From Candidatus Gastranaerophilales bacterium (GTDB lineage Bacteria > Cyanobacteriota > Vampirovibrionia > Gastranaerophilales > Gastranaerophilaceae): a DNA stretch of 35,780 nt. Positions 17,664-21,310 of the stretch are shown here, in pieces. Both the position numbers and the translations under genes were made by a program. Each line of letters opens with the position of its first letter. Within the stretch, counting starts at the first letter, position 1. The notes beneath the pieces were generated by a model. That model was not told the origin of the DNA and ran no database searches. It saw only the letters and a program-made list of their open reading frames with translations. The DNA is taken from assembly GCA_947857085.1 (NCBI GenBank), contig CANUDF010000011.1, positions 1-35,780 of the forward strand, written 5' to 3'.

Positions 17664-17690
17664 AAAAAAAGCCGCCCCGAAAAGGGGCGG
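17664..17690 (-). terminator. Intrinsic terminator of the OadG/permease operon
   Basis: CCGCCCC (17672-17678) and GGGGCGG (17684-17690) form a GC-only stem with a five-base loop. The minus-strand product continues GCTTTTTTT. It lies just past the permease stop. Confidence 0.92.
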
Positions 17691-17698
17691 GTTTCTTA

Positions 17699-19024
17699 CT
17701 AATGTAAGAATCTAATGTAGATATAAATTGTACTTAAAATTAAAGAAATCAGCATTGTTAAAACGCCGTATTTCAAAAATCTCATAAATGAAATCGGGTG
17801 TCCGTGGTGTGCAGAAGATTCTGAAACAATTACATTTGCAGCTGCACCTATAATTGTCATATTGCCGCCCAGGCAGGCACCTAGTGATAAACACCACCAT
17901 AGTGGATATGTGTAATCAGCCCCCATAACTTTTTGAATTTCTAATAACATTGGTGTCATTGTGGCTGTATAAGGAATATTGTCAATAATTCCTGAAATAA
18001 CGCCTGATGCCCATAAAATAAGCATTGCTGTTGCTTGTTCGGAACCTTGGGTTACATTCAAAATCCATTTTGCCATTAAAGCAATTCCGCCTGATGCTTC
18101 AAGCCCGCCAATTATTATGAATAAACCAATGAAAAAGAATATTGTGTTCCATTCTACATCTTTTAAGATTGAAGTCGGTTTTTCAAATAATAGAAGAATG
18201 CTGGCGCCAATCATAGCTGTCAGATATGCAGGTATATGGGTGATATCATGCATTACAAAACCTATAATTACAAGACCTAATATAATTGCGCTTCTTATCA
18301 TTAACGGATAATCGGTTATAGTTTTTGAGTTATCTAATTCTGCTACAGCAGCCATTTGTTCAGGTGTCGTTTTTAAATCTTTTCTAAATATAAGTGTTAA
18401 AACAACAAGTACAACAAGAAGGATTACTGCAACAACAGGCGTAAGCTCTTTTATGAAATCCATAAATGATAAACCTGCAGCGCTTCCTATAATTATATTT
18501 GGCGGATCTCCTATTAATGTCGCTGTACCGCCGATATTTGATGCAAAAATTTCAGTAATTAAATATGGTATAGGATTTATACCAAGCTGATTTGCGATTA
18601 CAAATGTAATCGGCATAATTAATATTACGGTTGTTACGTTATCTAAAAATGCAGAAGTTACGGCTGTAAATAAGCCAAGTGCGAATAAAATAAGCGCTGG
18701 GTGGCCTTTAGTCATTTTTAAAAGTTCATTGGCAATCCAGTTGAACATTCCGCTTTTTGTCGCAATATTTACTATTATCATCATTGATACCAGTAGAAAT
18801 ATTACACCAAAGTCTACATAGTTAATAAAGTAATGCGGGTTAAAACTTTCCCCGAGCATTTTTTCTGAACCTACAAGTCCAAGAAAAATTGTTAACGCTC
18901 CTCCGATAAGTGCAATTGTTACTTTTGGAATTTTTTCTGTTGCTATAAATATATAAGCAACTATTAATATTGAAGCAGCAATTGCAACGGAATGTGCATT
19001 TACAAGTGAATGTAAAAATTCCAT
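17699..19024 (-). CDS. ArsB/NhaD-type ion transporter (IT superfamily)
   Basis: The 441-residue polytopic protein has about 11-12 helices. Signature stretches are TSAFLDNVTTVILIMP, ASNIGGTATLIGDPPN and, in the second half, GIIDNIPYTATMTP and CLGGNMTIIGAAANV. These are the paired re-entrant signatures of the ArsB/NhaD/P-protein group, whose members move Na+/H+, arsenite or anions. The substrate cannot be fixed from sequence; NhaD-like Na+/H+ antiport fits best with its neighbour, an OadG-like sodium-pump subunit 14 bases upstream in the same operon. AAAGGAGAG precedes the ATG. A strong terminator follows. Confidence 0.9.
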   Translation of the reverse strand: MEFLHSLVNAHSVAIAASILIVAYIFIATEKIPKVTIALIGGALTIFLGLVGSEKMLGESFNPHYFINYVDFGVIFLLVSMMIIVNIATKSGMFNWIANELLKMTKGHPALILFALGLFTAVTSAFLDNVTTVILIMPITFVIANQLGINPIPYLITEIFASNIGGTATLIGDPPNIIIGSAAGLSFMDFIKELTPVVAVILLVVLVVLTLIFRKDLKTTPEQMAAVAELDNSKTITDYPLMIRSAIILGLVIIGFVMHDITHIPAYLTAMIGASILLLFEKPTSILKDVEWNTIFFFIGLFIIIGGLEASGGIALMAKWILNVTQGSEQATAMLILWASGVISGIIDNIPYTATMTPMLLEIQKVMGADYTYPLWWCLSLGACLGGNMTIIGAAANVIVSESSAHHGHPISFMRFLKYGVLTMLISLILSTIYIYIRFLH

Positions 19025-19038
19025 TTTATTTCTCTCCT

Positions 19039-19287
19039 TTATCCTTTTTGGGATTTGGCATATGCTAGTGCTATTGCCAGTGCTACATCACTATCTGAAG
19101 AAGATTGACCCTTTTTGGTGTATTTTACTTCATTGGGTATTTCTTCAGGAAATATATTATTAAGTTTTTTTATTACGAATGCCATTATGTCCATTGAATA
19201 AACCATAATTACCAGGAACAGGAATACAAAACCCATACCTAAGCACATTATTACGGTTCCGTCTCTCAATAAAGAAAGATTATCCAT
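19039..19287 (-). CDS. OadG-like small membrane subunit
   Basis: An 82-residue protein with one transmembrane helix (about 12-33, MCLGMGFVFLFLVIMVYSMDIM) followed by AFVIKKLNNIFPEE and a polar tail. This matches the gamma subunit (OadG) of sodium-pumping decarboxylases, which assembles OadA and OadB. Neither partner is in the window. Instead it heads a two-gene operon with an ArsB/NhaD-type permease. AAAAGGAG precedes the ATG, and a TATAAT lies about 25 bases upstream. The OadG assignment is good by pattern, but the family is short and diverse. Confidence 0.75.
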   Translation of the reverse strand: MDNLSLLRDGTVIMCLGMGFVFLFLVIMVYSMDIMAFVIKKLNNIFPEEIPNEVKYTKKGQSSSDSDVALAIALAYAKSQKG

Positions 19288-19351
19288 TACTTATTCTCCT
19301 TTTTTATAATTATACTAATGAGCTATTAATTTAAATTAATAACCCGGATAA

Positions 19352-19696
19352 TTAAGGAGCTCTTGGATTGGATGAAAATGATAGGAGATATCCATCCAAA
19401 TAATTATATAATTTTAAATTATTTTTATCAGAAATAAATAAATTCTTAAGCTCAAAAATATTATTGCCAGTAAAGCCAAATCCCTCCGGGCTAAACATAT
19501 ATTGGTAAGAGCCGGTTATATTGGTGCATATAAAATACTCGTCTGCATTATTACTATAAGGCTGGCATGCAGAGTTCTCAACTGCTTCTATATTTGCTGC
19601 TGTTTTAGATATAACAGTTTTGTCCGCGGCATTTGTTTTTGTAATTCCGCAGATAAATAGAAATATTACAGCTATAACTACTAAGAATTTTCTCAT
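19352..19696 (-). CDS. Secreted small hypothetical protein
   Basis: This 114-residue protein starts with a Sec signal peptide (MRKFLVVIAVIFLFICGITK, cleavage near NAA-DK). The mature part is about 90 residues, has two cysteines (C44, C57) that may form a disulfide, and includes YQYMFSPEGFGFTGNNIFEL. I do not recognise a family. No clear Shine-Dalgarno precedes the ATG, but a TACAAT box lies 12 bases upstream. It follows the histidine kinase on the same strand by 42 bases and may be co-transcribed with it. Confidence 0.65.
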   Translation of the reverse strand: MRKFLVVIAVIFLFICGITKTNAADKTVISKTAANIEAVENSACQPYSNNADEYFICTNITGSYQYMFSPEGFGFTGNNIFELKNLFISDKNNLKLYNYLDGYLLSFSSNPRAP

Positions 19697-19738: not shown

Positions 19739-20401
19739 TTATTTGATAACAGGTATTATAATTTCAAACTCTGTAAGACTTCTGGTTGATTTGTTAAGTC
19801 TTAACTCGGCATTTTGTACGTTAAGATTTTCCTTGCAGATGTGAAGCCCGAGTCCGCTGCCGGTTGGTTTTGTGGTAAAGCCTTCATTAAAAATTTCTTT
19901 TTGCTTCTCTTTTGAAATCATTTTTCCGTTATTAGCAATTCTCAAATGAGCAAAGCCGTCTTTTACTTCCGCAATAATATTAATTTCACCCTTAATTTCA
20001 ATAGCCTCAATCGCATTTTTTATTATATTGACAACGCATGCAAGAAATTTATTATCATCAACATATATATCGGCTGTATTTTTGATGAAAGTATTAATTT
20101 CAATATTTTTGCCCTGTGTATATGCCGTTGATAGTCTTATGCTTTCTTCGACTAAATATTTAAAATCACAGTTTTGCGGCGACAAGTTGTTTAAGGATTT
20201 TAAATCTAAAAGGCTGGTGCCTATAATTTTTAACGATTTTTGAATACATTCAATTGCATTATCAACAGACTGGTTTTTATAATTATCTTTTACAAGATTT
20301 TTTCTTAATATTTCAGTGTACATTTCACATATTGATATATGATTTCTGATTTCGTGCGAAACGCATCTGGTCTGTAATTTTATTAAATCTATATCGTTCA
20401 T
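19739..20401 (-). CDS. Soluble sensor-less histidine kinase
   Basis: This 220-residue protein is only a transmitter: H-box VSHEIRNH with phospho-acceptor H16, a dimerisation helix pair, N-box NIIKNAIEAI, G1-type NNGKMI, and G2 GSGLGLHICKENL with FNEGFTTKPTG before it. There is no membrane segment and no PAS or GAF domain, so the signal must come from a partner or a cytoplasmic cue. AAAGG precedes the ATG. The gene follows a NarL-type response regulator on the same strand, separated by a hairpin, so the pair is probably a two-component system in reversed order. Confidence 0.9.
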   Translation of the reverse strand: MNDIDLIKLQTRCVSHEIRNHISICEMYTEILRKNLVKDNYKNQSVDNAIECIQKSLKIIGTSLLDLKSLNNLSPQNCDFKYLVEESIRLSTAYTQGKNIEINTFIKNTADIYVDDNKFLACVVNIIKNAIEAIEIKGEINIIAEVKDGFAHLRIANNGKMISKEKQKEIFNEGFTTKPTGSGLGLHICKENLNVQNAELRLNKSTRSLTEFEIIIPVIK

Positions 20402-20418
20402 TTATACCTTTCTTAATA

Positions 20419-20449
20419 TTAAGGTTCAGCTTTTTCAGCTGAACCTTAA
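20419..20449 (-). terminator. Intercistronic hairpin between regulator and kinase
   Basis: TTAAGGTTCAGCT and AGCTGAACCTTAA are perfect 13-base arms around a five-base loop. The minus-strand product lacks a T-run after the stem, so it is more likely a processing, stability or attenuation element than a full terminator. Confidence 0.55.
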
Positions 20450-20469
20450 TCCCTCTTTACTTTATTTTT

Positions 20470-21168
20470 TTATACAGCCATTTTGGTTTTTCTTTTGTTT
20501 GCAAAGCCGTTGTTTAATGCGTATAAAACTGCTTGAGTTCTGTCATTTACCTGTAATTTTTGGAAGATATTGTTGACGTGAGTCTTAACTGTAGTTTCTG
20601 ATATAAATAATTTTCCTGCAATACCCTTGTAGTTATTTCCCTGTGTTAATAAATCCAGAACTTCTTCTTCTCTTGCCGTTAAATATGTAAGTAAATTTTC
20701 TGTGTCTGAAGAAACTGCTTCTTCTTTGAAAGAACGTTGGAAGTATTCAAAAAATCTTGAAGATAAAGCAGATGGAAGATAAATTTTTCCGGCAGCAACT
20801 TCATCTATTGCATAAATAAGCTGAGCAGATGCCATAGTTTTTAATATATATCCTTTTGCTCCGAGTTTCATTGCACGGAAGATTAAATCAGCATCATCAT
20901 AGCCGCTCAGTGCAATAATTTTTGAATTCAAGCCCAGTTTTTCAATGTCTTGAATTGCTTGTAATCCATCTTTTTCCGGCATATTTATGTCCATCAGGAT
21001 AATGTCCGGGCGATATTTTTTAGCAAGATTAATTCCTATATTTGCACTTGTTGTTGCTCCAACTACATCATAACAGCTTTCAAGAGTGATTAATTCTTTA
21101 ACACCTCTTAAGTGGTCTGCGTTATCATCAATTAATAACACTCTTAATTTACTTCTGAACTCTCTCAT
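20470..21168 (-). CDS. NarL/FixJ-type response regulator
   Basis: From the ATG at 21168 the protein has 232 residues. The receiver domain shows the acidic pair D14/D15, phospho-acceptor D60 in ILMDINMPEKDG, S88 (IIALSGYDD) and K110 (GAKGYILKT). The C-terminal LuxR-type helix-turn-helix starts LTAREEEVLDLL and includes GIAGKLFISETTVKTHVNNIF. It is a transcription activator or repressor when phosphorylated, presumably by the soluble kinase next to it. AGGGGAG fixes the start; ten more codons upstream in frame start with GTG and lack support. Target genes are unknown. Confidence 0.93.
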   Translation of the reverse strand: MREFRSKLRVLLIDDNADHLRGVKELITLESCYDVVGATTSANIGINLAKKYRPDIILMDINMPEKDGLQAIQDIEKLGLNSKIIALSGYDDADLIFRAMKLGAKGYILKTMASAQLIYAIDEVAAGKIYLPSALSSRFFEYFQRSFKEEAVSSDTENLLTYLTAREEEVLDLLTQGNNYKGIAGKLFISETTVKTHVNNIFQKLQVNDRTQAVLYALNNGFANKRKTKMAV

Positions 21169-21310
21169 TTTATCTCCCCTTATTTTTGTAACCTTCAACT
21201 ACACTTTACATACTACTATTTTGAGAGGGGATTTTCCTCCATGTTCCGATTGATATTGTAGTCATGGCGGTTTGAGAAATTGGAGTAAATCTTTGGGTTG
21301 ATATTTTGCC

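Follow-up and report, generated by a model that had tools for sequence, protein, structure and literature searches.

Most known translation-arrest peptides monitor SecA, SecDF or YidC. By published criteria, such monitoring peptides carry an N-terminal signal or transmembrane stretch, a spacer of more than 30 residues and a conserved C-terminus and lie upstream of secA, secDF or yidC, and in the SecM mechanism the stalled ribosome frees the next ribosome-binding site (RBS) (PMC10987492). The authors of that study concluded that the use of arrest peptides is not limited to Sec or YidC, with YwcI showing use beyond the Sec genes, and their list of searched arrest motifs included RAP-stop, one such peptide being located upstream of sacT (PMC10987492). 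An RAP tripeptide in the ribosomal P site blocks peptide transfer (PMC10951233), and VemP of Vibrio demonstrates that a leader of this kind can follow sodium-dependent export (PMC7897499). In the citS-oadGAB-citAB operon of Klebsiella, as at the locus described below, a transporter gene lies beside oadG and is tied to sodium pumping by oxaloacetate decarboxylase; unlike at our locus, oadA and oadB follow directly, and the account of the operon in PMC2735749 mentions no leader peptide. For the group of bacteria considered here, a decarboxylase-driven sodium gradient combined with a sodium/proton antiporter has been proposed to energize the membrane (PMC3787301). Our literature search found nothing joining oxaloacetate decarboxylase with either arrest peptides or Gastranaerophilales, and the main text of PMC10987492 contains no words beginning with Gastranaerophil, Vampirovibrion or Melainabacteria.

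The window analysed here is the whole 35,780-nt stretch of contig CANUDF010000011.1 from a 1.75-Mb, 99.6% complete genome of Candidatus Gastranaerophilales bacterium (GCA_947857085.1). The gene pair reported in a preliminary description of this DNA, an OadG-like subunit and an ion permease, proved to be real, both proteins scoring above family cut-offs and their genes lying 14 nt apart, and the strong terminator noted there was present 3′ of the permease gene (Table 1). However, the same description took the pair for a closed two-gene operon and overlooked a leader ORF that is read in the same direction and ends 64 nt upstream of the oadG start codon; we infer that leader, oadG2 and permease form one three-gene unit transcribed as a single RNA. 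The TATAAT hexamer assigned to the pair as its own promoter does exist, but it sits inside the hairpin predicted to mask the oadG RBS, and promoter-like sites were no commoner in the region than in shuffled sequences (18 found versus 16.9 expected, the hexamer not being among those listed); we rejected it as a promoter. Sequence comparison makes it probable that OadG2 of this three-gene unit is an exchangeable gamma subunit for OadA and OadB encoded on contig 13 of the genome, that the permease functions independently of OadG, and that the leader is an arrest peptide inducing oadG2 and the permease gene. The leader is the part of the locus most worth testing. Directly upstream of it and in the same direction (positions 19739–21198) lie genes for a luxR-type response regulator and a short histidine kinase, which are kept at the locus in 6 of the 7 congeners compared, whatever variable genes are present.

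Table 1 Features of the three-gene locus in the window, with examples of the small membrane gene at related loci.
Feature	Position	Strand	Description
Leader ORF	19352..19696	-	Candidate arrest peptide of the monitoring type, 114 aa; signal peptide, then a variable middle, ending in SNPRAP-stop
Predicted partners of the oadG RBS and preceding bases	19348..19359	-	Leader codons around Ala-Pro-stop and bases 3′ of them
TATAAT	19309..19314	-	Putative promoter; part of the hairpin predicted to mask the RBS (3′ strand)
oadG RBS	19295..19301	-	AAGGAGA, predicted to be masked
Second OadG (oadG2)	19039..19287	-	82 aa; sodium-pump decarboxylase gamma subunit; one N-terminal transmembrane helix, conserved C-terminal helix motif
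Permease	17699..19024	-	CitMHS / ArsB-fold secondary transporter, 441 aa
Intrinsic terminator	17672..17690	-	3′ of permease; 7 G-C pairs, then CTTTTTTT
Small membrane gene (examples)	L050 6330-6482; L112 2881-3033; also L049, L125, L126, others		

The leader starts with a signal-peptide-like stretch, as judged by a hydropathy scan, has a spacer of more than 30 residues and matches no Pfam family. By its anatomy, it is best read as a translation-arrest peptide of the SecM/ApdA type. Like ApcA, ApdA, ApdP, SecM and the RQH family, it combines an N-terminal localization signal, a variable spacer, a C-terminal R/Q-A-P and an upstream position (PMC10987492, PMC7897499, PMC10951233). It also resembles the RAPP-like arrest peptides in the masking, here predicted, of the downstream RBS by pairing near the stall point, but it has a stop codon where those peptides have Pro or Gly after RAP. 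The RAP-stop anatomy raises the question of whether the P-site mechanism can block termination besides peptide transfer. The leader precedes oadG or a permease gene rather than secA, secDF or yidC and thus falls outside the Sec/YidC-related set of arrest peptides, although it may still work like one of them. VemP is, like the proposed leader, an export monitor tied to sodium-dependent versus proton-dependent transport (PMC7897499). VemP controls secDF2, unlike the leader, which stands before an ion transporter and a decarboxylase subunit. Their arrest sequences also differ.

We searched for similar leaders within 320 nt upstream of oadG and permease genes, counting identical upstream sequences once. 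An ORF ending in A-P-stop preceded 44 of the 50 distinct permease-linked oadG loci (45 when one located further upstream, at L069/L117, was included; L055, lying at a contig edge with no upstream sequence, was scored as having no leader) and all five solitary oadGs that are second copies followed by a small membrane gene. Such ORFs were found at 5 of 54 permeases without oadG and at none of the 13 other solitary oadGs or the 47 oadGs of oad operons. Two further oadGs that follow ORFs ending in RAP-stop (L196 and L199) were kept outside these counts; they are second oadGs in two further genomes, and the L196 oadG frame contains a stop codon. All loci fetched together contain 2304 distinct ORFs with 90 or more codons, of which 61 have A-P as their last residues; leaders of this kind account for 57 (53 counted above and 4 recognized by eye among 8 others). 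Upstream of related permeases, the last residues of the leader recur and the middle does not: in 42 leaders less than 70% alike, A at −2 and P at −1 were invariant, and position −3 was R in 32, N in 9 and Q in 1; the codons varied. The N-A-P variant had no precedent in the parts of the arrest-peptide literature covered by our search. In most of 13 leader pairs nonsynonymous change was below synonymous change and reached its minimum over the final 15 residues; compared with the leaders of L008 and L009, that of the window was more divergent throughout. When genomes were tallied by hand, the leader accompanied the unlinked OadG in 29 of the 30 genomes also keeping an operon oadG versus none of the 12 in which the unlinked OadG is the sole one found beside OadB (1e-9, for genomes that are not independent). 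The simplest reading of this distribution is that a spare gamma subunit would be conditional and controlled by the leader, and a sole gamma subunit unregulated.

RNA folding predictions over the same 42 leaders gave the RBS of the next gene a mean probability of 0.22 of being unpaired and of 0.65 of pairing with the 30-nt footprint of a ribosome stalled at the end of the leader, versus 0.39 and 0.16, respectively, in dinucleotide shuffles. The permease's own RBS, used as a control at 28 loci, was 0.47 free and 0.075 paired. Blocking the footprint raised the free probability of the RBS to 0.44 in the 42 leaders but freed it by more than 0.2 in only 28 of 54 leaders. In the window, the RBS was 0.23 free, 0.77 paired with the footprint and 0.47 free once the footprint was blocked; its fold taken alone was modest (z −1.73, with 9 of 200 shuffles as good). 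Masking was weak or absent at L008 (footprint pairing 0.19), L054 (0.04), L065 (0.01) and L060, L097 and L132 (0). Thus, the predictions over the leader set point to a downstream RBS that is masked and would be freed by a stalled ribosome, the signal in the window by itself being modest.

Alternatively, the leader could be an ordinary small secreted protein with a C-terminal AP recognized after export, the RBS pairing being a by-product of its Ala-Pro codons. The leader indeed looks translated and is under purifying selection over most of its length, and shuffling everything except the RAP codons left the RBS 0.31 free with a footprint pairing of 0.40, indicating that more than half of the 0.65 pairing signal comes from the Ala-Pro codons themselves. 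Nevertheless, the observed pairing remained above that of all shuffles in which the RAP codons were kept (0.49 in the highest of 20 sets). The motif also lies immediately before the stop codon and is the tripeptide that occupies the P site in known RAPP arrest peptides, and the leader is absent from 12 of 12 genomes whose unlinked OadG is the sole one found beside OadB. We regard this alternative as unlikely.

The OadG of the window scored 43.9 bits against Pfam OAD_gamma (PF04277, cut-off 27) and 45.9 against NCBIfam oadG_fam (TIGR01195, cut-off 36.05), and its single N-terminal hydrophobic helix, G-M-G-x-V-F-x-F-L pattern and C-terminal A-I-A helix motif were all present. It aligned with the gamma subunit of Salmonella oxaloacetate decarboxylase (PDB 6iva/6iww) over the transmembrane helix (residues 5–52, E 2.8e-4), and the C-terminal part did not align; unlike the Salmonella gene, the window oadG lies away from oadA and oadB, behind a leader. 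The pair had been described as being without OadA or OadB, which is correct for its immediate neighbourhood but not for the genome, where a birA-oadG-oadA-oadB operon on contig 13 contains the only matches to both proteins. In the OadG tree, the 76-aa OadG of this operon clusters with other operon-encoded OadGs, and the window OadG is placed elsewhere, in a clade (support 100/99) with five OadGs of congeners, each of which has no permease beside it and is the sole OadG found in a genome with OadB. The contig 13 operon adjoins, divergently, ORFs that by eye resemble ATP synthase genes.

Comparison within the genus revealed a conserved locus, comEC-rmuC-response regulator-histidine kinase-[X]-amylase, with variable content at X. 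At L008 and L009, X consists of a leader and a permease, and both genomes retain oadG in the oad operon, encoding proteins 88% and 80% identical to the contig 13 OadG. X is oadG alone in genomes G046, G102 and G132 and oadG with one other ORF in G023, and no other OadG was found in these four genomes. In G058 the same OadG lies one gene from the amylase, with different surroundings on the far side. The window carries leader, oadG and permease at X, and its genome also keeps the operon oadG. The empty birA-oadA junction was read in G046 and G058, and the other congeners were judged from a single PF04277 match. In the gene tree built from the flanks, both branches of the genus contain oadG2, so L008 and L009 probably lost oadG2 and others probably lost oadG1, and such reciprocal loss is the pattern that exchangeable copies would give.

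The survey covered the window's own genome and 145 evenly drawn genomes of the order with a completeness of 90% or more, of which 113 had OadG, 112 had OadB above cut-off and at least 144 had a permease relative. Of 146 OadG genes, 97 directly precede OadB, at least 31 directly precede a permease and 18 have other neighbours among the matches listed, which miss some permeases of low identity, so that an oadG beside one of those falls in the last class. The oadG-permease pair therefore recurs in at least 31 of the 145 genomes, well above chance. Every one of the 112 OadB genomes carries at least one OadG: an unlinked copy was present in 15 of 15 OadB genomes without an operon oadG versus 30 of the 97 that have one (Fisher 2e-7, a value that overstates independence because the genomes are related), and in 45 of the 112 OadB genomes versus 1 of 33 other genomes. 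In 11 genomes whose oad operon was read, birA is directly followed by oadA with no oadG between. In two genomes, G044 and G066, no OadG other than the permease-linked one was found beside OadA/OadB, so that this OadG must serve them, if the pump needs a gamma subunit. These findings support the earlier suggestion of a small subunit serving decarboxylase partners encoded elsewhere. On our reading, the window OadG is most likely a second gamma subunit, exchangeable with the operon-encoded one, and reciprocal gene loss suggests that it binds the contig 13 OadA/OadB. Exchangeable copies would provide natural gene-loss evidence for gamma subunits acting in trans. At five further loci, from a separate group of genomes (L096, L100, L103, L104 and L105), a solitary oadG, in four of them near an ilvC-like gene named by eye, accompanies an oad operon without oadG.

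We also considered that permease-linked OadGs work independently of OadA/OadB and rejected this, OadB being found in 24 of 28 permease-linked genomes examined as a separate set. In two of the remaining genomes, G155 and G166, a contig edge lies inside oadA or just past birA, indicating that the oad genes were cut off, and in G149 there was only a poor birA match. The last, G080 (= G168), is 99% complete and has the leader-oadG-permease operon but no OadA, OadB or birA match; since birA is absent too, an assembly gap is a possible reason for the missing OadA and OadB.

Instead of a pump subunit, OadG2 might be a scaffold tethering OadA and its biotin beside the permease and channelling decarboxylation to the transported substrate. 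In favour, the C-terminal OadA-binding motif is conserved in permease-linked OadGs, and OadGs accompanied by both a permease and a small membrane gene occur alongside a complete oadGAB. However, the OadGs of G044 and G066, being permease-linked and the sole ones found beside OadA/OadB, must also serve OadB, and we consider a role purely as scaffold rather improbable.

The permease scored 295.4 bits against CitMHS (PF03600, cut-off 31.9) and 64.8 against Pfam ArsB (cut-off 22.2). It stayed below the NCBIfam cut-offs for ArsB (96.5 versus 457, 82.4 versus 760 and 77.8 versus 415), NhaD (58.7 versus 577.1 and 50 versus 80), DASS and MamN. CitMHS and the CitS of Klebsiella are different transporter families. 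The predicted model (mean pLDDT 88.1) has the ArsB/DASS fold, shared with ArsB of L. ferriphilum (PDB 10tp), its nearest structure (Z 45.1, rmsd 2.6 over 414 residues, 19% identity; next Z 37.8), and with VcINDY (PDB 4f35). Attempts to assign a substrate yielded none, as no NCBIfam cut-off was passed and the structure search gave the fold only. Our guess is cation/proton, specifically sodium/proton, exchange within a sodium cycle, in line with relatives such as MamN, which is recorded as homologous to a Na+/H+ antiporter (PMC3905215); the membrane energization proposed in PMC3787301 fits, without proving, ion exchange by the permease. The window genome contains a second CitMHS permease, 62% identical (L138, contig C40), which by eye lies beside a response regulator and a histidine kinase, and no oadG or leader was found near it.

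The permease and OadG are separable. At least 10 genomes (for example G007, G014, G016, G018 and G036) carry a permease at least 74% identical to that of the window and no OadG anywhere, and the nearest permeases, those of L008 and L009 (87–88%), occupy the same locus with no oadG in between. The 50 linked permeases require five changes on a tree that holds 104 permeases in all, 46 of the 53 rows of linked permeases form one clade, and the closest kin of the window permease are unlinked. The four permease motifs checked were all present in 103 of the 104, linked or unlinked. Mere juxtaposition, in which a wandering oadG landed beside a permease and nothing couples the two, would agree with the widely varying neighbours of unlinked oadGs, with the grouping of the window permease among unlinked ones and with the separate coming and going of oadG and permease within the genus. 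Yet, by the five changes of the permease tree, several branches gained or retained the pairing, and most of the pairs share the leader, and we judge this explanation to have a low probability, on a par with the scaffold. The preliminary description had proposed a dedicated two-subunit sodium transporter, and the results cut both ways, as the pairing does recur in relatives and the nearest kin of the small protein are gamma subunits with OadA/OadB as their necessary partners. Despite the tight spacing of the pair in at least 31 of 145 genomes, the single clade of most linked permeases and the pair in G080 without OadA/OadB, we rejected it as the main reading, and find it very improbable, because either protein is found without its partner, as the genomes with close permeases and no OadG, the permeases of L008 and L009 and the oadGs at the same locus without permease demonstrate. 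In addition, the permease motifs are kept equally with and without linkage, and OadG retains the C-terminal motif through which known enzymes bind OadA.

Returning to the reading of the locus as a leader-controlled unit with an exchangeable gamma subunit, we propose that a ribosome would stall at the A-P-stop of the leader and be released by export of the leader. While parked, it would cover the codons otherwise paired with the oadG RBS, so that oadG and the permease gene could be translated. Poor export, for example at low ion-motive force, would then switch on oadG2 and the permease; OadG2 would join OadA/OadB and the permease would exchange ions. The conditional gamma subunit, the permease and, in relatives, the small membrane protein would together constitute a sodium-cycle annex. 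More tentatively, and at somewhat less than even chances, the leaders may represent an undescribed xAP-stop arrest-leader family of Gastranaerophilales that senses ion-motive force via export and switches on this annex of gamma subunit, ArsB-fold transporter and, often, a new small membrane protein. If true, arrest peptides would control not just the machinery of export but also its energy supply, and arrest leaders preceding genes for an ion transporter and a decarboxylase gamma subunit would tie export stress to energy coupling in gut bacteria.

The small membrane protein is a conserved 35–60-aa protein with a single membrane span, encoded 9–15 nt past the permease stop codon in many leader-oadG-permease operons. 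At L091, L093, L097, L099 and L102 its gene directly follows a second oadG, without a permease. The protein matched no Pfam or NCBIfam family above cut-off and is absent from the window. In five close copies (L050, L112, L063, L059 and L053), nonsynonymous change was well below synonymous change. By hand tally, the gene occurs in 20 of the 30 genomes that carry an unlinked oadG as well as an operon oadG versus none of the 15 OadB genomes without one, a split similar to that of the leader by genome.
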